From Amphiura filiformis (Eukaryota > Echinodermata > Ophiuroidea > Amphilepidida > Amphiuridae): a stretch of 64,000 nucleotides of DNA. Positions 22,701 through 53,512 of the stretch are shown here, piece by piece. How positions within the stretch are numbered: the first letter of the stretch is position 1; each line of letters opens with the position of its first letter. Made by a program: the position numbers and the translations under genes. Under the pieces are notes generated by a model. The model was given only the letters and a program-made list of their open reading frames with translations, ran no database searches and was not told where the DNA came from. Location: NCBI RefSeq assembly GCF_039555335.1, contig NC_092635.1, positions 47,636,052 to 47,700,051 on the forward strand. The letters run 5' to 3'.

Positions 22701-25700
22701 TTAATGCCTCGAGTTTCAAAATACACCGAGTGATGTGTTTTGATCAAAAACATCGACAATTGAAGACTATGTAAAAACAAATCAAGAATTTTCTGGGATA
22801 ATTGCAACTAAGTATAATGAAAGTTATGATCTAAGCTACCAGATGCATCATTAATTTCCTGACTATGATATTTAGTTGTGGGAAAAGATTACTTTAATGT
22901 TTTGGCGGGATTATTTCCCGCCAAAAAGTTCAACCAAAAAGAGCATGTAGCCTTAAAAGCCCCAAATCAAGGATGAGTGCTATAGTTTACATGTTGAATG
23001 CGGATTCGTCCCCGCATACAACTCCTTTAGCAGCGGTGGACACTTTTGGGATTTAGCATAAAGCCGAATAGCTGTTTTGAGGGATATATCGATTGTTTCA
23101 GAACATGAAATAACTGGTACACATTCACTTCTATAATATACATTTCAAACAAGTGCTCACGAATGTTCTAAATTTTTAAGAACAGCAATATTCGGCACTC
23201 TGCCGTGTTCATAACGATATTAATGCCCCGTAAACTGGGTATTGATTATCGGATTATCATGAGACTTGAGTGCCAAAATATTCAGGGTTATGTCAAGGTC
23301 ATCTAAGTTCAACTGAGTATAGATTGTTGGCCTGTAATCAAACGTGGTGGATGTAATAACCATTGAAAGCTACAAATGTCCGAGGTCATGCCAAGGTCAA
23401 CTGAGTATAGACTGTTGGATTGTCGTAAAACTTGATGGATTGAGCATTTTGGTGCAATGAATTTCATGTATTTAGCACACATTTTGAAGTAAATTTACAA
23501 CTTTAACATGAAACATCTTGAGTATTTTACGGTATTCCCCTTGAAAATATTTCCAACCCGGTAAATAATTACATACACACAACAAGTTAGCACACAGTGA
23601 TAGAATGATCCACTCACGTATAAAGAAGGTCTTTTCCACCAGTGCGGGCAAATGTAGTGTCTACCCAAACGAACGTCCCTTCACTCTCAGCATCCGTTAG
23701 ACCAATCCAGTGTCCTCCCGAAGAAATGAGTTTCCGGCGAAGAAAATCCTTTCATAACAACAAACGCAGAAAACCAATATATTATTTTTCAGTCAAAAAA
23801 GTCGTTTGTAAACTCAGCATGAAGTTCATCTGTATTGGTCAATTCCATGTAGGAAATTCAATCTCTTGATCATACAATACAAAAATGCAGACCATACACG
23901 ATTAATTTGATTGATTGGGGACCCTAGATGCAGGGCTGAATACAAATAATATTTTTCTTCAATATTATTGAAGATATCTTGTGTACGGTGCACAATGGAA
24001 GATGATGGTTTGATATTGATCAATCAAAATGAACGTATATGGATCGCATTACCCCGGGGTGAAGAACTATAATATATCTACAGCGATGAGGCCACACATC
24101 ACCCTCAGAAAGCAACTGGTCCACCCAAAAGATAAGCGAGACCCTCTCAACACCACTCAGGCAGTGTATAAAATCCCCTGCAAGAACTGTAACTTGTCTT
24201 ATCGATAATTAGAGTCACGCGGTAGCCGTGACCAGCAAGTTTTTTTTTTTTAAAGACTGTTAAAGAAGACTAATAAACAGATGCTCCCGCGAGACTATAT
24301 TTACACCTAACATTAAAACACTTGACTTCTATTGTTCTATGATATTTTTCGCTGCAGCAAGTTTTAAAAAAAAGACTGTTAAAGAAGACTAATAAACAGA
24401 TGCTCCCGCGAGACTATATTTACACCTAACATTAAAACACTTGACTTCTATTGTTCTATGATATTTTCGCTGGATACAAAGTGTATCTAAAACCATGTTT
24501 AATGTTATTTAGAGTCCCAAATGTAATATCTTGACAACTCATTAATTCAAAAAGGACACCAATCCTTCAGTCAACCATTGTTTGATAATAAAAAAACACT
24601 TTTGCTTCATTTCACGCGGTATTTCATAGCGAAAATTAGTGGAAAATAATTTCGGGGCGCGCATTTATTCCACTTTTACACCATACTTCATCAGTTTATC
24701 TTCAAAATAGCAACATTTTCGTGCGCTTCGCGCGCATTTGTACCATAAACTTATTATGTCGCCAAAAGGGGCTGGATTCAATATAGTTAAAGAATTTTTC
24801 CAACCCCATCCCCCAATGTCAAAAAGAAATCTACTCCACTGGATATAATGCAATTATGTCTAGCCCCTTTTCGATCTAACTCGAAACCCGAATGACTCCA
24901 TGGAAAACGTCAAATTTGTTCTTTCATTCGAATAAGCCATGGACGAAGAAAAATGTCTATTATTGACCGGGATTTGAACGTGGGACCAACCCCAGGGTAT
25001 CTAGACCAGCACTCTTACCACCTAAACCAATAAATCGAAGCGTCATAGCACTTCCCTGGTTATATATGCGCAAAGTTCCAAATTTTATCGCTCGCGCTTC
25101 TCTAGCAACAAGCATTAAGGGTAGACGAGGTATTGTTGGTCGAAGCAACCCAAAAATCTATTTTCATTATATAAATCAATATATTATTCATCAGGATCGG
25201 TAGAGTAAACTAGTAAACCAGAGTTCGTAGTATCTGATCCAAGAAAATGCACTTACTTTCAACAACCACTGTTGTCTTTGTCAACACTTGATGAGAGTGA
25301 CTGCAATCTACTGACAACCAACGCTAGAGGGATTTCCAGCGTGATTTGTTGGGTTGCCAGTTGGTTTTCCTTTTGGGGATTTTTTAGATCCCTGTTGCAG
25401 GATCTCCTCAAAGACGAAGTAAACAATGAAATTCCCGCGGAAACTGAGTTGGGACAAAGAACGTACGTAAATACTAAACAACGTCACCTACAGAAGTTAA
25501 AGATCTTGACTGAAAAATCCGCCGCGAGCAACAAAAATTCCGTCGATTCTACCATTGATTTGTCAGGTACACAGCTCAAGAAATGGGTAATAAATCTTTC
25601 AAAGTACAAATTAAACACAGCCGAAACCAGTGTTTTGTCTAAGGGACTTAATTATGCCATATCGCCACCAGAAATATGCGCGGAGGAATTTGTACTAGCA

Positions 25701-28700
25701 ACAGAACTGGCATGTAAACACCTACCGCTGGCCGATGGAATCCAACTGCGAGCAAAAATAGCGAGCACGTTAAAGTCATCTAAAGTGCCTGAACAAAATA
25801 TCACAAAAGATGAACGCAAACCTATCAAAGATCTGGAAAAAGCGGAAGATATCACCATCGTTCCAGCAGATAAAGGGAAATCCACGATGGTTTTAGGATA
25901 AGGTAGAATATGAAGAAAAGGTTACGACTCAAAAGTACAAGCGAAAACTCGTCTCCGTGTTATCCAGCCTAAAGAAGGAAGGTAAGATCAGTGAACTAAA
26001 GTACAAACAACTGTATCCTACGGCTGAAAATGTACCTAGGTTATACTGTACGCCCAAAATTCACAAACCAAACACTCCGTTGCGCCCCATTGTTGATTAC
26101 ACGGCGACGATTGGATACAGTACTTCAAGATGGCTGGCGGACATTTTGGGTGGTTTAGTCGGTAAAACGCAACACCATGAATTCGCAGCATCTATCGGAG
26201 GAGCTTGGAAAGGTTATTATCGAAGAAGAGGATATTCTCAACTCTCATGATGTGGTCAGTCTTTTCACCAACACTCCTATTGACCAAGTTTTAGACATCG
26301 TAAAAAACAGACTTGAGAAAGAGAATGTACTTCGGGTGTATAACAAAGAGACAGGGTTCAAGTTGACCAGTGATGATGTTGTCCAACTGCTTGATTTCAT
26401 CTTAACGACCACGTATTTTACATTCAGAGGAAAATCTATCGCTAGCTTTTTGGTACAGCCATGGGCAGTCCTGTTTCGCCGATAGCAGCTAACATATTTA
26501 TGGAAGCGTTGGAGCAACAGGCGATTGCCACGGCTCCTCTCGATTGTAGACCAAAGTTGTGGCTTCGTTATGTGGATGATGTGTTGGAGGTAATAAACAA
26601 AGGCAACGTTCAGCAGTTGACTGACCACATCAATCAGGTCGACAAGTCTGGTTCTATCAAATTTACAAGAAACGCAAGGTTCTCTACCATTTCTGGATAC
26701 TCTGATTGTTAGGAAGGATGACGGTACTGTCAAGCTTATGGTCTATCACAAACCAACGCACACCGACCAATATTTGAATTACCAGTCTTACCACCCTCTG
26801 CATCAAAAACTAGGGGTCATACGATCTTTGTACTACAGAAAGGACACCATAGTGACAGAAGAGGCGGATAAAGAGGAAGAAGAAAAGAAAGTTCAGAAAG
26901 CCCTCCAAACGTGTGGCTATTGGACATTTGAAAAGGTGAAAGATCAAATGCAAAGTGTTAAACCAAAGAAGGTGACAAAAAAGACAGCTGAAAACAGCAA
27001 GAGTAAAGGTATGGTTGTTCTAATCTAGGCAGTGTACAAAATCCCCTGCAAGAACTGTAGCCTATCGTACATTGGAGAAACGGGTTGAAAATTCGGTACG
27101 CGGTTAAAGGAACACAAAAGTGAAGTGGAGAAAGTCAGCAGCACCGTGGTCACTAGAGCAGAGAGGAAAGAGTCCTTAACTACTACGCACAAGTGTCATT
27201 GGGTGGGGGGAAGCTGAGGTCATTGGCACAGAGCAAGATAGATATAAGCGCTGGATCAAAGGAGCTGTGGAAATTAGAAAGAGGGGGCGTACAACTATGA
27301 AAGAGACCAGGGGCAGTACCAGCTTACTCACATTTTTGACGAGTTCCTGCAACAGGGATCTAAAAAATCCCCAAAAGGAAAACCAACTGGCAACCCAACA
27401 AATCACGCTGGAAATCCGTCTAGCGTTGGTTGTCAGTAGATTGCAGTCACTCCTCATCAAGTGTTGACAAAGACAACAGTGGTTGTTGAAACGTACACAG
27501 TAAGTGCATTTTATAAGTGCATGATCAGATACTACGAACTCTGGTTTACTAGTAAATCAATATATTATTAAGAAATAACACTTTGATGTTTTGCAAAAGT
27601 TCGTTCTACAAATCATTTGCTTTAAAACTTGCTTGATTTATTTGTTGTTAGCGACAAAAGTGTTGTTGTTTCAGCCCTCTTCTACACATTCGTCACTCGC
27701 TATGAAATGATCAATGCAATTTTTGTCAAAGCTCACTAACATTTGAGTATATGAATACAAAACCCACCCAAGTCCATACGTTGGCCAAATTGAGTTAAGC
27801 ATGGGAAATAGTTGCTATACATAGGCCTGTCATATACTGCGCCAATAAAGTATCCTTACACTTGGAAAAATAATCACAATTTCAAAACTGAACAATATTG
27901 GCGTAAATTTCTTATTTTAATAGATGCACTATCTAATCCTGCACATTGTGACACCACATTGAATCCAATGTGACATCAAGAAGTAAAGTTACAAGCAATT
28001 GAATAGACGAAGGTCCAGTTTTAAAAGTGACAAACTGGCCTATATAAGGCAAGAAAAGATTCCAACAAGCGCAACAAAGAGACAACACAGTTTCTTCAAT
28101 GAAGCGTTATTTAAAACAGTTTTTATTTCAGTTTTTACTTCTCTGTACTTTTCATAACTTTCATTTTATTTGTCAGTTCTTTTGTTTCAGTTTTCTTTTG
28201 TACCTTTTGTTTTAAATTAAAGCCAAACGCATAAATTAGTCATTCACCACTCTCAAACCAGATTTGTGGTCTGTGGAGTTTTGAATAGGCCAGTACGCAG
28301 TTTGTCACTTTTGAAACTGGACCTTCGTCTAATCAAATGCTTGTAACTTTTCTTCTTGAAGCCACATTGGATTCAATGTGGTGTCATAATGTGCAGGATT
28401 AGATAGTGCATCTATTAAAAAAACAAATTTACTCCAATATTGTTCAGTTTGGAAATTGTGATTATTTTTCCAAGTGTAAGGATACTTTATTGGCACGGTA
28501 TATGTATTAAAGAACAACTCAAATCCATCATCTGTGTCTATTGAGCATGTGAGAAATAGCATGTATGAAAGAACCACCCAATTCCGTGATTTGAGTCTTG
28601 TAACACATTGATTGAAATCCAGTAGGTATAAAAGTCCACTTGTAACACATTCATTGCTGGAGAGTGACTTTTGAAAAAAAAATGGGTTTAATAAAGGAAC

Positions 28701-31138: not shown

Positions 31139-31209
31139 TTATAACAATATTAAGATTGTGATGAAATTTCCCCGTCGAGCCATGATTAAAGAAGGAAATA
31201 GGGAAAGTG

Positions 31210-31279
31210 ATCCCACCCGGGAATTAAACCCAGGACCTCTGTTTACGAGACCAGCGCCTTAACCACTTGGCCACGGGAC
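31210..31279 (-). repeat. tRNA-Thr-like pseudogene or SINE head
   Basis: On the minus strand it reads TCCCGTGGCCAAGTGGTTAAGGCG, a loop CTCGTAA (anticodon CGT) and T-arm CTGGGTTTAATTCCCGG. The acceptor pairs TCCCGT/GTGGGA. The anticodon stem has two mismatches (CTGGT against ACAGA) and the B box is GGTTTAATTCC, so it is unlikely to be a working tRNA. Confidence 0.5.
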
Positions 31280-31796
31280 TGAGCTTCATGATTAGGCAGA
31301 CTGTGAATTCAACCTATAAGCAGTCACTCAACCTAGCCTTCTTCGTGCAAGTCATCCCATAGTGCTTGAACAAGCGTAGATAGAGACGTCCACACTAGAG
31401 AGGAACTAGAGAGCGCCGCATCCTCGTGAGAAAGTGGAACAAAATTGATCAAGAAGAAATAAAACACCTCGTCAGAAGCATGCGACATCGCATATAACAG
31501 CGTTTTCGAACAGTGATGAAGGACACACTAAGTATTGAAGGATAAACTGATGCGTTTGACGTGACTGAGAGCAAAGAATGAATCCATGAAAATAAGAGTA
31601 GCATGAGATTGAAATAAACAAATGAGTGACGAAAATGTTTCTGTTTCTGTTCATAGTGTAAATCTTTCCTGGAAATATGCTGTTTATTTATTAATTCAAA
31701 TTTATTGTCCCCAAATATTTTTAACATCACCAATCATCATCTTTTATTAGATTTAGAATGGATGCTAGATTTTTTTACGTCAGAAGTTCATAAAAG

Positions 31797-31807
31797 TGTC
31801 TTTATTA
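31797..31807. repeat. Direct repeat bordering the tRNA array, left
   Basis: TGTCTTTATTA here recurs at 36513-36523, immediately outside the array. Possible target-site duplication; the last few bases on the right overlap the unit end (cctgt), so the certain part is CTTTATTA. Confidence 0.6.
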
Positions 31808-31964
31808 AGTAAGCCTCTTCCTCTGTTTGTATGATTATATTAGGCTGGCGGGTAAGCATCATTAATTGATCTCGTACACTGGTGTGTAATGTGTTGTTTG
31901 TACTGTTCACCCTTGACTGCTCATATCCATAAGTACCAGACTTGAGTCCTGTTTATCAGGGACA

Positions 31965-32036
31965 GTCTGTGTAGCTCAGTGGTTAGAGCGCTCGCCCGAC
32001 AAGCGAGAGGTCTGGGGTTCAAGTCCCCGCACAGGC
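31965..32036 (+). tRNA. tRNA-like gene, anticodon GAC, array copy 1
   Basis: The 72-nt cloverleaf: acceptor GTCTGTG/CACAGGC (one U-G pair), D stem GCTC/GAGC, anticodon stem CTCGC/GCGAG with loop CCGACAA, variable AGGTC, T stem TGGGG/CCCCG with TTCAAGT. Position 33 is C, not the near-universal U, and the anticodon GAC would read valine GUC/GUU, which eukaryotes normally read with an AAC tRNA. The B box GGTTCAAGTCC and A box TAGCTCAGTGG fit Pol III. A T6 terminator lies at 32051-32056. The discriminator is A and CCA is not encoded. The body (GCGCTCGC...GCGAGAGG) resembles eukaryotic tRNA-Ala, but there is no G3:U70. Could be a functional odd tRNA, a tRNA-derived small RNA source, or a SINE-like element. 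Confidence 0.75.
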
Positions 32037-32401
32037 AGGTATGTCCGGAGTTTTTTCTCTGATGTATCTGCCTATGCATGTTATGTTTCCATTTGTAAAT
32101 TCATGTTTAAATGTGCTAGTGTGCGATGCGTAATTCTTCTTTCCCCTGTATATTGATATATTAAGAATAACGATTAAGCATCAATAATTTGATCTCGTGC
32201 GCTAGTTGTAATGTTTGAATGTTTCCATGTTCCAGTGTATGATGCGTAAGCCTCTTCCTCTGTTTGTATGATTATATTAGGCTGGCGGGTAAGCATCATT
32301 AATTGATCTCGTACACTGGTGTGTAATGTGTTGTTTGTACTGTTCACCCTTGACTGCTCATATCCATAAGTACCAGACTTGAGTCCTGTTTATCAGGGAC
32401 A

Positions 32402-32473
32402 GTCTGTGTAGCTCAGTGGTTAGAGCGCTCGCCCGACAAGCGAGAGGTCTGGGGTTCAAGTCCCCGCACAGGC
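32402..32473 (+). tRNA. tRNA-like gene, GAC, array copy 2
   Basis: Identical to copy 1 over all 72 nt. T6 terminator 14 nt downstream. The 3' spacer of this unit carries a variant 'ttgttctttgtcttgta' in place of 'ttcttctttcccctgta'. Confidence 0.75.
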
Positions 32474-32838
32474 AGGTATGTCCGGAGTTTTTTCTCTGAT
32501 GTATCTGCCTATGCATGTTATGTTTCCATTTGTAAATTCATGTTTAAATGTGCTAGTGTGCGATGCGTAATTGTTCTTTGTCTTGTATATTGATATATTA
32601 AGAATAACGATTAAGCATCAATAATTTGATCTCGTGCGCTAGTTGTAATGTTTGAATGTTTCCATGTTCCAGTGTATGATGCGTAAGCCTCTTCCTCTGT
32701 TTGTATGATTATATTAGGCTGGCGGGTAAGCATCATTAATTGATCTCGTACACTGGTGTGTAATGTGTTGTTTGTACTGTTCACCCTTGACTGCTCATAT
32801 CCATAAGTACCAGACTTGAGTCCTGTTTATCAGGGACA

Positions 32839-32910
32839 GTCTGTGTAGCTCAGTGGTTAGAGCGCTCGCCCGACAAGCGAGAGGTCTGGGGTTCAAGTCC
32901 CCGCACAGGC
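32839..32910 (+). tRNA. tRNA-like gene, GAC, array copy 3
   Basis: Identical to copy 1. T6 terminator. The spacer has 'ctttccctg' (one C fewer). Confidence 0.75.
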
Positions 32911-33274
32911 AGGTATGTCCGGAGTTTTTTCTCTGATGTATCTGCCTATGCATGTTATGTTTCCATTTGTAAATTCATGTTTAAATGTGCTAGTGTGCGA
33001 TGCGTAATTCTTCTTTCCCTGTATATTGATATATTAAGAATAACGATTAAGCATCAATAATTTGATCTCGTGCGCTAGTTGTAATGTTTGAATGTTTCCA
33101 TGTTCCAGTGTATGATGCGTAAGCCTCTTCCTCTGTTTGTATGATTATATTAGGCTGGCGGGTAAGCATCATTAATTGATCTCGTACACTGGTGTGTAAT
33201 GTGTTGTTTGTACTGTTCACCCTTGACTGCTCATATCCATAAGTACCAGACTTGAGTCCTGTTTATCAGGGACA

Positions 33275-33346
33275 GTCTGTGTAGCTCAGTGGTTAGAGCG
33301 CTCGCCCGACAAGCGAGAGGTCTGGGGTTCAAGTCCCCGCACAGGC
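33275..33346 (+). tRNA. tRNA-like gene, GAC, array copy 4
   Basis: Identical to copy 1. T6 terminator. Confidence 0.75.
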
Positions 33347-33711
33347 AGGTATGTCCGGAGTTTTTTCTCTGATGTATCTGCCTATGCATGTTATGTTTCC
33401 ATTTGTAAATTCATGTTTAAATGTGCTAGTGTGCGATGCGTAATTCTTCTTTCCCCTGTATATTGATATATTAAGAATAACGATTAAGCATCAATAATTT
33501 GATCTCGTGCGCTAGTTGTAATGTTTGAATGTTTCCATGTTCCAGTGTATGATGCGTAAGCCTCTTCCTCTGTTTGTATGATTATATTAGGCTGGCGGGT
33601 AAGCATCATTAATTGATCTCGTACACTGGTGTGTAATGTGTTGTTTGTACTGTTCACCCTTGACTGCTCATATCCATAAGTACCAGACTTGAGTCCTGTT
33701 TATCAGGGACA

Positions 33712-33783
33712 GTCTGTGTAGCTCAGTGGTTAGAGCGCTCGCCCGACAAGCGAGAGGTCTGGGGTTCAAGTCCCCGCACAGGC
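33712..33783 (+). tRNA. tRNA-like gene, GAC, array copy 5
   Basis: Identical to copy 1. The terminator is T5 (33798-33802), the shortest in the array. Confidence 0.75.
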
Positions 33784-34147
33784 AGGTATGTCCGGAGTTT
33801 TTCTCTGATGTATCTGCCTATGCATGTTATGTTTCCATTTGTAAATTCATGTTTAAATGTGCTAGTGTGCGATGCGTAATTCTTCTTTCCTCTGTATATT
33901 GATATATTAAGAATAACGATTAAGCATCAATAATTTGATCTCGTGCGCTAGTTGTAATGTTTGAATGTTTCCATGTTCCAGTGTATGATGCGTAAGCCTC
34001 TTCCTCTGTTTGTATGATTATATTAGGCTGGCGGGTAAGCATCATTAATTGATCTCGTACACTGGTGTGTAATGTGTTGTTTGTACTGTTCACCCTTGAC
34101 TGCTCATATCCATAAGTACCAGACTTGAGTCCTGTTTATCAGGGACA

Positions 34148-34219
34148 GTCTGTGTAGCTCAGTGGTTAGAGCGCTCGCCCGACAAGCGAGAGGTCTGGGG
34201 TTCAAGTCCCCGCACAGGC
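34148..34219 (+). tRNA. tRNA-like gene, GAC, array copy 6
   Basis: Identical to copy 1. T6 terminator. Confidence 0.75.
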
Positions 34220-34583
34220 AGGTATGTCCGGAGTTTTTTCTCTGATGTATCTGCCTATGCATGTTATGTTTCCATTTGTAAATTCATGTTTAAATGTGCT
34301 AGTGTGCGATGCGTAATTCTTCTTTCCCTGTATATTGATATATTAAGAATAACGATTAAGCATCAATAATTTGATCTCGTGCGCTAGTTGTAATGTTTGA
34401 ATGTTTCCATGTTCCAGTGTATGATGCGTAAGCCTCTTCCTCTGTTTGTATGATTATATTAGGCTGGCGGGTAAGCATCATTAATTGATCTCGTACACTG
34501 GTGTGTAATGTGTTGTTTGTACTGTTCACCCTTGACTGCTCATATCCATAAGTACCAGACTTGAGTCCTGTTTATCAGGGACA

Positions 34584-34655
34584 GTCTGTGTAGCTCAGTG
34601 GTTAGAGCGCTCGCCCGACAAGCGAGAGGTCTGGGGTTCAAGTCCCCGCACAGGC
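34584..34655 (+). tRNA. tRNA-like gene, GAC, array copy 7
   Basis: Identical to copy 1. T6 terminator. Confidence 0.75.
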
Positions 34656-35019
34656 AGGTATGTCCGGAGTTTTTTCTCTGATGTATCTGCCTATGCATGT
34701 TATGTTTCCATTTGTAAATTCATGTTTAAATGTGCTAGTGTGCGATGCGTAATTCTTCTTTCCCTGTATATTGATATATTAAGAATAACGATTAAGCATC
34801 AATAATTTGATCTCGTGCGCTAGTTGTAATGTTTGAATGTTTCCATGTTCCAGTGTATGATGCGTAAGCCTCTTCCTCTGTTTGTATGATTATATTAGGC
34901 TGGCGGGTAAGCATCATTAATTGATCTCGTACACTGGTGTGTAATGTGTTGTTTGTACTGTTCACCCTTGACTGCTCATATCCATAAGTACCAGACTTGA
35001 GTCCTGTTTATCAGGGACA

Positions 35020-35091
35020 GTCTGTGTAGCTCAGTGGTTAGAGCGCTCGCCCGACAAGCGAGAGGTCTGGGGTTCAAGTCCCCGCACAGGC
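35020..35091 (+). tRNA. tRNA-like gene, GAC, array copy 8
   Basis: Identical to copy 1. T6 terminator. The spacer has 'cttcttgcccctg'. Confidence 0.75.
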
Positions 35092-35456
35092 AGGTATGTC
35101 CGGAGTTTTTTCTCTGATGTATCTGCCTATGCATGTTATGTTTCCATTTGTAAATTCATGTTTAAATGTGCTAGTGTGCGATGCGTAATTCTTCTTGCCC
35201 CTGTATATTGATATATTAAGAATAACGATTAAGCATCAATAATTTGATCTCGTGCGCTAGTTGTAATGTTTGAATGTTTCCATGTTCCAGTGTATGATGC
35301 GTAAGCCTCTTCCTCTGTTTGTATGATTATATTAGGCTGGCGGGTAAGCATCATTAATTGATCTCGTACACTGGTGTGTAATGTGTTGTTTGTACTGTTC
35401 ACCCTTGACTGCTCATATCCATAAGTACCAGACTTGAGTCCTGTTTATCAGGGACA

Positions 35457-35528
35457 GTCTGTGTAGCTCAGTGGTTAGAGCGCTCGCCCGACAAGCGAGA
35501 GGTCTGGGGTTCAAGTCCCCGCACAGGC
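35457..35528 (+). tRNA. tRNA-like gene, GAC, array copy 9
   Basis: Identical to copy 1. T6 terminator. Confidence 0.75.
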
Positions 35529-35892
35529 AGGTATGTCCGGAGTTTTTTCTCTGATGTATCTGCCTATGCATGTTATGTTTCCATTTGTAAATTCATGTTT
35601 AAATGTGCTAGTGTGCGATGCGTAATTCTTCTTTCCCTGTATATTGATATATTAAGAATAACGATTAAGCATCAATAATTTGATCTCGTGCGCTAGTTGT
35701 AATGTTTGAATGTTTCCATGTTCCAGTGTATGATGCGTAAGCCTCTTCCTCTGTTTGTATGATTATATTAGGCTGGCGGGTAAGCATCATTAATTGATCT
35801 CGTACACTGGTGTGTAATGTGTTGTTTGTACTGTTCACCCTTGACTGCTCATATCCATAAGTACCAGACTTGAGTCCTGTTTATCAGGGACA

Positions 35893-35964
35893 GTCTGTGT
35901 AGCTCAGTGGTTAGAGCGCTCGCCCGACAAGCGAGAGGTCTGGGGTTCAAGTCCCCGCACAGGC
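35893..35964 (+). tRNA. tRNA-like gene, GAC, array copy 10
   Basis: Identical to copy 1. The terminator is T7 (35979-35985), and the following text is 'ctctggtatatctg' instead of 'ctctgatgtatctg'. Confidence 0.75.
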
Positions 35965-36330
35965 AGGTATGTCCGGAGTTTTTTTCTCTGGTATATCTGC
36001 CTATGCATGTTATGTTTCCATTTGTAAATTCATGTTTAAATGTGCTAGTGTGCGATGCGTAATTCTTCTTTCCCCTGTATATTGATATATTAAGAATAAC
36101 GATTAAGCATCAATAATTTGATCTCGTGCGCTAGTTGTAATGTTTGAATGTTTCCATGTTCCAGTGTATGATGCGTAAGCCTCTTCCTCTGTTTGTATGA
36201 TTATATTAGGCTGGCGGGTAAGCATCATTAATTGATCTCGTACACTGGTGTGTAATGTGTTGTTTGTACTGTCCACCCTTGACTGCTCATATCCATAAGT
36301 ACCAGACTTGAGTCCTGTTTATCAGGGACA

Positions 36331-36402
36331 GTCTGTGTAGCTCAGTGGTTAGAGCGCTCGCCCGACAAGCGAGAGGTCTGGGGTTCAAGTCCCCGCACAG
36401 GC
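36331..36402 (+). tRNA. tRNA-like gene, GAC, array copy 11
   Basis: Identical to copy 1. T6 terminator. Last copy; the unit is cut off at 36515 after 'ttcccctgt'. Its upstream spacer has 'tgtccaccc' instead of 'tgttcaccc'. Confidence 0.75.
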
Positions 36403-36512
36403 AGGTATGTCCGGAGTTTTTTCTCTGATGTATCTGCCTATGCATGTTATGTTTCCATTTGTAAATTCATGTTTAAATGTGCTAGTGTGCGATGCGTAAT
36501 TCTTCTTTCCCC

Positions 36513-36523
36513 TGTCTTTATTA
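36513..36523. repeat. Direct repeat bordering the tRNA array, right
   Basis: TGTCTTTATTA, matching 31797-31807. Confidence 0.6.
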
Positions 36524-50221: not shown

Positions 50222-50360
50222 TTTTCTACATGTAACCTTTATATGGGACACCTTGTACCTTACTCAAGGGCACAACACGATGGCGTCGCCGGGGCTCGAA
50301 CCCGCAACCTTCCGATTATGAGTCGGAGCCCGTTCCGCTCGGCCACCGTGCTCCCTAGGG
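50222..50360 (-). repeat. tRNA-derived SINE (Met-CAT-like head)
   Basis: The minus strand reads GGTGGCCGAGCGG (A box), an anticodon arm TCCGA-CTCATAA-TCGGA (anticodon CAT, perfect stem) and GCGGGTTCGAGCCCCGG (B box GGTTCGAGCCC). The acceptor ends do not pair (ggagcac against cgacgcc). 'cttgagtaaggtacaaggtg' follows, as in tRNA-derived SINEs. Not a functional tRNA. Confidence 0.6.
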
Positions 50361-51114: not shown

Positions 51115-53512
51115 TAGTTAGGGGAAAAAGTTCACTTTGGTGACCACTCTCTGGCTAGTAAGGTTTGACGATTGATTCGACTTCTATGGACCATTTAGAA
51201 AAAAATAGCCACCATGTCCCTCGCGAAAATCCCGGCATTTTTCGCTAGAGGCCAAAATCCAAAATGGCCGCCACCACCATTTTGAAAATTTAAGTTTTGA
51301 ACCAGAGCACCTATAATCATGCACAAAGACACTTTTTCGGATATGTCGAGTACAAGGATTCCGATTCTGACATTAGTTTGACATTACGGCATAATTTTCA
51401 CCCAGAAATCCAAGATGGTGGCCGGCACCATCTTGAAAAATTTAGTTTTGAACAAGAGGACCTTAAATCGTGTACAAAGACACTTTTTTGGATAAGTCGA
51501 CCACAAGGATTTCAAATTTGACATTACTTTGACATTACGAACTAATATTTACCCAGAAATCCAAGATGGTGGCCGCCGGCGCCATCTTGAAAAAAATAAG
51601 TTTTGAACCAGATTACCTAAAATCGTGTACAAAGACACCTTTTCCGGTAAGTCGACCCCAAGAAATCCGAATCTGACATTAAGTTGACGTTACAAAATAA
51701 TTTTTGCCCAGAAATCCAAGATGGCCCCATTTGGTAGAGCGTAAATGTGATTTTTGAATGAGAGCAGAAGCATAAGTGTGTCATTTCCGCCTTATCTGGG
51801 GTTCATGTCTCTTATATGGGGTTTCAACTGCCTTATCTTGGGTTTACATCCCTTATCTATGGATAAGGCGCCTTATCTGTGGTTTAGACGGCCTTATCAT
51901 GGGTTTACGTTCCTTACCTGTGGCTAAGATGCCTTAACCTTAGCATATCGCAGTCTAAACCCAGATAAGGCATATAAACCCCAGATAATGCGCCGTAACC
52001 CCAGATAAGCGACGTAGACCCCAGATAAAGCAGTCTAAACCCCAAATAAGGCGCCTTAACCCTAAATAAGGAACATAAACCCCAGAAAAGACATCTAAAC
52101 CCCACATAAGGTGCCTTAACTCTAGATAAGGGTTGTTAACCCCAGATAAGGGTCGTAAACCTCAGATAAGGCATCTAAACCCAAGATAAGGCGCCTTAAC
52201 CCCAGATAAGAGACGTACACTCAGATATGGCAGTTTAAACCCCAGATAAGGCGCCGTCTGGGTTTTACTTCTCTTATATTAGGTTTATGTTCCTTATTTA
52301 TGGTTAAGGCGCCTTATTTGGGGTTGGGACTGGTTTATCTGAGGTGTACGTCCCTTATCTGGGGTTACGGCGCCTTATCGGGGGTTTAAACTGTCATATC
52401 TGAGTTTACGTCTCTTATCTGGGGTTAAGGCGCCTTATCTTGGGTTTAGATGTCTTATCTGAGGTTTACGACCCTTATCTGGGGTTAACGACCCGTATCT
52501 AGAGTTTGGGCACCTTATGTGGGGTTTGGAGGCCTTATCTTAGGTTTATGTTCCTCATTTAGGGTTAAAGCGCCTTGTTTGGGGGGTTGGACTGCTTTAT
52601 CGGCGGTCTACGTCCCTTATCTGGGGTTACGACGCATTATCTGGGGTTTAGATGCCTTATCTGGGTTTAGACTGCGATATGCTAAGGTTAAGGCATCTTA
52701 GCCACAGGTAAGGAACGTAAATCCAGGATAAGGCCGTCTAAACCACAGGTAAGGCGCCTTATCCCTAGATAAGGGATGTAAACCCAAGATAAGGCAGTTT
52801 AAACCCCATATAAGGGACATGAACCCCAGATAAGGCGGAAATGACACATTTATGCTTCTGCTTTCATTCAAAAATCACATTTACGCTCTACCAAATGGGG
52901 GCCATCTTGGATTTCTGGGCAAAAATTATTTTGTAACGTCAAATTAATGTCAGATTCGGATTTCTTGGGGTCGACTTACCGGAAAAAGTGTCTTTGTACA
53001 CGATTTTAGGTAATCGGGTTCAAAACTTATTTTTTTCAAGATGGCGCCGGCGGCCACCATCTTGGATTTCTGGGTAAATATGAGTTCGTAATGTCAAAGT
53101 AATGTCAAATTTGAAATCCTCGTGGTCGACTTATCCAAAAAGTGTCTTTGTACACGATTTAAGGTCCTCTTGTTCTAAACTAAATTTTTCAAGATGGTGC
53201 CGGCCACCATCTTGGATTTCTGGGTGAAAATGATGCCGTAATGTCAAACTAATGTCAGAATCGGAATCCTTGTACTCGACATATCCGAAAAAGTGTCTTT
53301 GTGCATGATTATAGGTGCTCTGGTTCAAAACTTAAATTTTCAAAATGGTGGTGGCGGCCATTTTGGATTTTGGCCTCTAGCGAAAAATGCCGGGATTTTC
53401 GCGAGGGACATGGTGGCTATTTTTTTTTCTAAATGGTCCATAGAAGTCGAATCAATCGTCAAACCTTACTAGCCAGAGAGTGGTCACCAAAGTGAACTTT
53501 TTCCCCTAACTA
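51115..53512. mobile_element. 2.4-kb foldback element (giant palindrome with repeat-filled arms)
   Basis: The ends TAGTTAGGGGAAAAAGTTCA and its complement are inverted, and the whole interval folds back around ~52313. The outer ~670 bp of each arm holds three ~150-bp tandem units, each with 'aaatccaagatggtggccg', 'agttttgaac', 'gtacaaagacac' and 'gacatta'. The inner ~540 bp per arm is a ~21-26-bp repeat of 'cccagataaggc(gcc)ttaa' type. Matching frames at 51297 (plus) and 53328 (minus) differ at only about two of 65 codons, so the arms are ~97-98 percent alike there. Long inverted repeats built of short tandem repeats are the hallmark of foldback (FB/TU-type) elements. No transposase. Flanks: AAG on both sides or a TA target; ambiguous. 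Confidence 0.9.

Follow-up and report, generated by a model that had tools for sequence, protein, structure and literature searches.

How could eleven identical tRNA-like genes, all with an anticodon that eukaryotes are expected to lack, come to lie in a row in an animal genome, and do they decode? This question is raised by the locus at 31809-36515 of the window, the 64,000-nucleotide stretch of the brittle star Amphiura filiformis (contig NC_092635.1) analysed here. From one animal genome to the next, the number of transfer RNA (tRNA) genes differs by orders of magnitude, and the sets contain anticodons that ought not to be there. We propose, with a probability of about one half, that the locus arose by insertion of a head-to-tail multimer, that the array is young although its unit is old, and that the self-contained RNA polymerase III (Pol III) tRNA-like gene carried by each unit probably does not decode valine. 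If arrays can indeed be inserted ready-made, this would be a direct and testable route to sudden tRNA gene expansion and to forbidden anticodons, apart from short interspersed elements (SINEs) and slow local duplication.

Tandem Repeats Finder (TRF) describes the locus as an array with a period of 436, 10.8 copies and 99% matches. The units are arranged head-to-tail, ten of them full (436-438 bp) and the last one of 341 bp, and the array starts and ends at different points of the unit. The GC content of the unit is 42%, and 156 bp of the array precede the first tRNA-like gene. ARAGORN calls eleven tRNA-Val(gac) genes on the plus strand (31965-36403), and RF00005 of Rfam matches the same places with 65.1 bits each (gathering score 29, E 6.9e-12). 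Eleven identical tandem genes had been described at this place in an initial annotation, and ARAGORN, Rfam and TRF agree with it; the identity of the copies stands as well, their length being 73 nt and not the 72 nt given there. An A box (TAGCTCAGTGG) and a B box (GGTTCAAGTCC) are present in all eleven genes, and each gene is followed, after a 13-nt trailer, by a T run (T6 in nine copies, T5 in one and T7 in one), so every unit has the features predicted for a Pol III gene of the tRNA type. All stems are paired and the variable loop has 5 nt. By minimum energy the gene folds into a cloverleaf (-30.2 kcal/mol, z -2.5), a stability that 6 of 200 shuffled sequences equal or exceed; the centroid structure is without the D arm. 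The anticodon loop, CCGACAA, reads C32 C33 G34 A35 C36 A37 A38, with C33 in 11/11. The boxes, the T5-T7 terminator, the cloverleaf (as the minimum-energy structure) and the loop with its GAC and C at position 33 are thus as the initial annotation had them.

Counted against the consensus of the array units over 4707 bases, the copies differ by 9 substitutions and 6 indels. Only one change recurs, the loss of one base from a C run in units 3, 6, 7 and 9, and so few differences, with one shared deletion, fit a burst from one template. Ten of the 15 differences fall in one pyrimidine tract, CTTCTTTCCCC (32133-32147 and the equivalent place in each unit; columns 325-341), which adjoins the array's right end and may be a hot spot or a site of assembly error. 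At the substitution rate quoted for A. filiformis in PMC11310086 (1.885e-9), the copy differences would place the array at about 1 million years (My), a guess on the upper side if some of them are assembly errors. The unit also contains two adjacent subrepeats (unit positions 296-408 and 412-87, that is 412-437 and 1-87), whose alignment has 88 identical columns out of 117 and a score of 110, the best of 500 shuffles reaching 59. Between them 21 of the 109 aligned bases differ (19%), which at the same quoted rate corresponds to about 59 My. The array is therefore called young and its unit old, because the copies differ by only 9 substitutions in 4707 bases but the subrepeats have diverged by 19%. 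This internal duplication, the direct repeat that flanks the array and the out-of-phase array ends are new relative to the initial annotation.

An 11-bp direct repeat, TGTCTTTATTA, stands on either side of the array; eight of its bases, CTTTATTA, fall entirely outside the unit on both sides. The flanking duplication is taken as 8 to 11 bp, because 8 bp are outside the unit and the right-hand TGT belongs to the unit too. The chance of such a repeat was estimated from random pairs at the array's distance, either with equal freedom of placement (200,000 pairs) or with looser slack (100,000 pairs). With tight placement, a repeat of at least 11 bp was seen in 0/200,000 pairs and one of at least 8 bp in 60/200,000; with looser placement, the counts were 1/100,000 and 90/100,000. 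Eight other arrays of the window, hand-picked from 40 TRF rows, have flanking repeats of 2-4 bp each. The direct repeat is absent from the unit junctions inside the array, so the unit was not multiplied by exchange between the two flanking repeats. A flush 11-bp repeat combined with ends at different phases of the unit suggests a simple reading, in which a multimer was inserted with a staggered cut. hAT transposons make 8-bp duplications; an element of this type was considered and rejected, as inspection of the array ends by eye revealed no terminal inverted repeat.

The route that we favour for the origin of the locus is as follows. It is proposed that either the full array or a founder with a minimum of about 1.8 units arrived by an event that cut the target with a stagger of 8-11 bp. 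The multimer may have been made by copying round a circle, either a circular RNA reverse-transcribed several times round or a circular DNA cut from another array, and such copying would account both for the near identity of the copies and for ends that fall anywhere in the unit. The copy number may have been altered afterwards by unequal crossing-over. The insertion as a whole is given roughly even odds and the circle template less than that; with no hammerhead found, a circle of RNA or DNA as the template is an inference. A Pol III transcript stopping at the gene's own terminator would consist of the tRNA plus a short trailer and leave out the rest of the unit, and with the terminator directly behind it the tRNA is likely a passenger gene of a repeat that spread by other means. 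Alternatively, it might be a Pol III and chromatin landmark. In SINEs and in Helenus elements the tRNA-like part drives the copying of the element, a role that the terminator would preclude here. In its way of working the array would come closest to a tandem insertion of the retrozyme type with a tRNA-like gene as cargo. If the proposal is correct, further arrays of the unit are predicted, with a short flanking duplication and end phases peculiar to each.

The remaining issue is whether the genes decode. The eight GNN anticodons of the inosine boxes are listed as missing in Eukarya in PMC8007984, and a missing Val-GAC follows from that rule, GAC itself not being named in its list. The statement of the initial annotation that eukaryotes normally lack GAC is therefore right as to rarity, yet exceptions are known: large tRNAomes are described as disregarding G34 sparing and including such genes (PMC5372738), a Val-GAC is predicted in S. 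mansoni (PMC2770079), and 126 of the 127 predicted Val-GAC genes of Cronartium ribicola are listed as part of the Helenus element (Table 2 of PMC10886601). Its other general point, that U33 is nearly invariant in elongators, agrees with PMC9023262, which, where it speaks of C33 in place of U33, names it for initiator tRNA only. When the body is compared with the stem motifs of Table 1 of PMC9023262, it mismatches the Val row (GUUUCCG / GUGU / UYYGC / CCCGG or CUGGG) at 9 or 10 of 21 places, the Ala row at 6 of 19 (the D and anticodon stems fit, the acceptor and T stems do not) and the Asn row at 6 of 21. The D stem has C13-G22, where Val tRNAs have U13-U22 according to the same source. The body fits no specific isotype row of the table. 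As controls, four human tRNAs gave 0-1 mismatches each to their own rows, and a human Val-AAC gave 0/21 in the Val row.

Overall identity to 16 human tRNA sequences ranges from 37/74 (Arg-ACG) to 53/76 (Ile-AAT), with Val-AAC at 47/73, and suggests no clear parent isotype among them. Alanine identity requires G3-U70, and the pair found here is C3-G70. The tRNA-Ala-like body considered in the initial annotation is thus not borne out as an identity, given this pair and the Ala motif mismatches, though Ala-AGC (51/73 columns) has the second highest overall identity of the 16. An initiator-like tRNA was rejected as well: the loop has C33 as initiators do, but the acceptor pair G1-C72 and T54 do not fit the rules known for initiators, and the identity to the initiator methionine tRNA, 42/73, is among the lowest of the 16. 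By chance 2.5 of the 15 copy differences would fall in the tRNA and none does, which has a probability of 0.06, or of 0.38 when the pyrimidine tract is excluded; the unchanged tRNA of the eleven copies therefore gives no sign of selection. A working Val tRNA is judged unlikely, because of C33, of an anticodon missing from eukaryotes by rule and of a body without an isotype; such a gene would be transcribed, if at all, likely without a normal decoding role. The array is probably a young mobile repeat with a tRNA-like gene and not a new decoding tRNA. A literature search turned up no earlier description of tandem Val-GAC genes in an animal, which is not proof of absence.

Several observations weigh against the insertion of a non-decoding multimer. 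The evidence comes from one locus. The flanking repeat is short and AT-rich, shares its TGT with the unit, and its left copy is separated from the unit by a single spare A (31808). No poly(A), terminal inverted repeats or transposase were found for the array, and neither a hammerhead nor another ribozyme, the means by which retrozymes make circles, was found in Rfam or core-pattern searches. The age of the array is rough, because 10/15 of the differences behind it sit in one tract and are possible assembly errors. The stem-motif table is based on human, mouse and silkworm and not on echinoderms, and its loosest row, Arg, is mismatched at 2 of 15 places only, which leaves room for an arginine identity; this fit is not read as such because the Lys control scores equally in the Arg row. 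Finally, no relatives of the unit were found in sequence searches, which covered exact patterns in prokaryote and virus collections and one protein frame. A prokaryotic or organelle origin was considered and rejected: the genome contigs gave 0 exact-pattern matches, in a kind of scan that diverged relatives escape and in a prokaryote collection where brittle-star DNA is not expected. A search of the protein collection for spurious translated copies of the unit, made with one plus-strand frame out of the six, gave no candidate. The same exact-pattern scans of viral contigs returned a single match, which is regarded as a coincidence: ARAGORN finds no tRNA in 13,413 bases of that sequence, and by eye the match lies in coding-like DNA.

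Homogeneous arrays arise by unequal exchange, and a quite ordinary tandem tRNA cluster that expanded on the spot through unequal crossing-over or slippage during replication, its flanking repeat being due to chance, has to be considered; we regard it as a possible but doubtful explanation. Such clusters are frequent and change quickly: the clustered share of tRNA genes and pseudogenes is reported as 65% in zebrafish and 89% in Nematostella (PMC2888827). A tRNA-Cys cluster on Arabidopsis chromosome 5, as described in PMC10701932, is likewise built of tandem units of about 0.42 kb (~420 bp) with one tRNA gene each; however, it has four units that are 84-94% alike and a standard anticodon, whereas the array has 10.8 units that are 99% alike, a missing anticodon and a flanking duplication. 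Growth in place is also at odds with the rarity of a flush 11-bp repeat by chance and its lack in the eight hand-picked arrays. The repeat lies outside the array and not at the unit junctions, hence it is no product of exchange between repeats, and growth alone leaves out-of-phase ends beside a duplication unexplained. Should the array nevertheless be ordinary local duplication, it would be a warning that high-scoring predicted tRNA genes need not decode. A different view holds that the tRNA is functional, either a genuine decoder of GUC valine codons or, as raised in the initial annotation, a neofunctionalised Pol III RNA (a decoy or a fragment source), and was amplified as useful. The high covariance score, the paired stems, the intact boxes and terminators in 11/11 and the lack of any tRNA change across the copies would suit it, and A35, C36 and A73 agree with valine identity as generally understood. 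Isotype-discordant tRNAs can be expressed and CCA-matured, e.g., the nev-tRNAs of nematodes (PMC4300185), and the array tRNA resembles these and other missing-anticodon or isotype-discordant tRNAs treated in PMC8007984 and PMC5372738 in its unusual eukaryotic anticodon and a body that mismatches it. But the variable arm of nev-tRNAs is long and their body of Leu type, while in the array tRNA the variable loop has 5 nt, the isotype is unclear and position 33 is C; moreover, nev-tRNA-Gly was undetectable in ribosomes in vivo, as stated in PMC4300185. With the valine anticodon bases A35 and C36 present but the Val stem motifs, U13-U22 and U33 lacking, and with no selection signal, we find a functional tRNA improbable.

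Known mobile elements offer further comparisons. In the description of PMC7229834, non-LTR retrozymes, i.e., those without long terminal repeats (LTRs), primer-binding site (PBS) or polypurine tract (PPT), are tandem repeats of 150-450 bp with GC <50%, are tied to circular RNA and have target duplications >4 bp when present; those of metazoans have a type I hammerhead. The array agrees in its head-to-tail monomers of 436 bp, its GC of 42%, a duplication of 8-11 bp, and the fact that no LTR or primer site was found, and the window contains a Penelope-like element, a possible helper class. It differs in its complete tRNA-like gene with its own terminator and in the hammerhead: none of any Rfam class was found (the window searched at the gathering score and up to E 1, and 31700-32700 up to E 10), and the CTGANGA core is absent from both strands of the circularised unit. 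A metazoan retrozyme whose ribozyme has diverged or been lost, with the tRNA-like gene as an extra part, is therefore also held to be improbable. A tandem element of the Helenus type (TRIMp3; a terminal-repeat retrotransposon in miniature, TRIM, with a tRNA-like promoter in its LTR) would have an LTR of 341 bp and an internal part of about 95 bp. The 341-bp stretch shared by both array ends is what chains of LTR, internal part and LTR would show, the tRNA-like sequence lies inside the would-be LTR, and the Cronartium genes mentioned above show that Helenus can be a source of predicted Val-GAC genes. However, any tandem array that ends in an incomplete unit would share such a stretch, tRNA included, between its two ends. 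Animal copies of Helenus are reported to make 4-bp duplications (PMC10886601), against 8-11 bp here, and echinoderms are not among the phyla of Table 1 of that paper. The internal part (taken 2 bases short at its start, the missing bases adding AT only) has no TGG, the usual start of a PBS, on the plus strand, the first on the minus strand being 12 bases in; there are no TG...CA ends and no plus-strand purine run of 9 or more, such as a PPT, the minus strand having purine runs. Eleven copies stand in a row, and transcription from the promoter would end at the terminator directly after the tRNA and leave the element uncopied, so Helenus membership is very unlikely. Least of all do we expect a local pile-up of an ordinary tRNA-derived SINE. 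A SINE/tRNA-Deu-L2 family is reported in A. filiformis (PMC11310086), and a degenerate SINE-like tRNA sequence (31208-31280, minus strand) stands 685 bp before the first tRNA gene. But the unit resembles it weakly (72% over 50 bases, E 0.89), the element would start 156 bp upstream of the tRNA and not at its 5' end, the terminator follows directly, and no A-rich or short-repeat tail is present at the array's right end. Because each fails at least one tested feature, the array is filed neither as tRNA-Val nor as retrozyme, Helenus or SINE. It is tempting to see in it a new kind of animal mobile element, spread as circle-made tandem multimers, with a full Pol III tRNA-like gene whose anticodon is normally missing in place of the retrozyme hammerhead; RNase P and RNase Z cut sites, for instance, could then free the inter-tRNA spacer for circularisation. 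We consider this unlikely; if true, forbidden-anticodon tRNA genes would accumulate in large animal tRNA sets by riding mobile tandem units.

Table 1. Positions of the array, its parts and its flanking repeat within the window.
Feature	Position	Strand	Called by
Tandem array, 10 full units (436-438 bp) and last unit of 341 bp	31809..36515	+	
Left copy of 11-bp direct repeat TGTCTTTATTA; CTTTATTA is 31800-31807	31797..31807	.	
Right copy of 11-bp direct repeat; CTTTATTA is 36516-36523; TGT (36513-36515) also unit sequence	36513..36523	.	
Subrepeat A of first unit (unit positions 296-408)	32104..32216	+	
Subrepeat B, adjoining A (unit positions 412-437 and 1-87)	32220..32332	+	
tRNA-like gene 1, anticodon GAC, C33	31965..32037	+	ARAGORN, Rfam
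Pol III-type terminator (T6) of gene 1 after 13-nt trailer; each unit alike with T5-T7	32051..32056	+	
tRNA-like gene 2	32402..32474	+	ARAGORN, Rfam
tRNA-like gene 3	32839..32911	+	ARAGORN, Rfam
tRNA-like gene 4	33275..33347	+	ARAGORN, Rfam
tRNA-like gene 5, then T5	33712..33784	+	ARAGORN, Rfam
tRNA-like gene 6	34148..34220	+	ARAGORN, Rfam
tRNA-like gene 7	34584..34656	+	ARAGORN, Rfam
tRNA-like gene 8	35020..35092	+	ARAGORN, Rfam
tRNA-like gene 9	35457..35529	+	ARAGORN, Rfam
tRNA-like gene 10, then T7	35893..35965	+	ARAGORN, Rfam
tRNA-like gene 11	36331..36403	+	ARAGORN, Rfam

Other features were seen in the window. The degenerate tRNA-like sequence upstream of the array scores 33.7 bits in Rfam, has no ARAGORN call and a loop CTCGTAA, and resembles a SINE head; another tRNA-like match, at 50281-50352 on the minus strand, is weak (25.8 bits, under the gathering score). 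Pieces of a Penelope-like element span 25209-27556 and include 118-nt inverted arms at 25295-25412 and 27335-27452 (97%). The matches to its frame 25209-25901 include 7 A. filiformis proteins among 32, one of them 92% identical over 40% of the query, and the top-scoring ones are environmental proteins at 59-76%. Together with the C1q match given below, these proteins would place the window in A. filiformis or a relative. Nearby, 27831-28037 and 28298-28504 form a 207-nt inverted repeat, 94% complementary, with a spacing of 260 nt. Tandem repeats of 20 bp and 150 bp (with units like CTTATCTGGGGTTTA) make up a block at 51265-53370 and are oriented oppositely on its two sides. A hairpin at 5373-5454 matches the mir-729 and mir-218 models on both strands, under their gathering scores, and is likely a palindromic repeat. 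Among eight frames of the window searched with Pfam, C1q was the sole domain found, and a C1q-type exon on the minus strand (11861-11535) has 91.7% identity over 109 residues to an A. filiformis protein.

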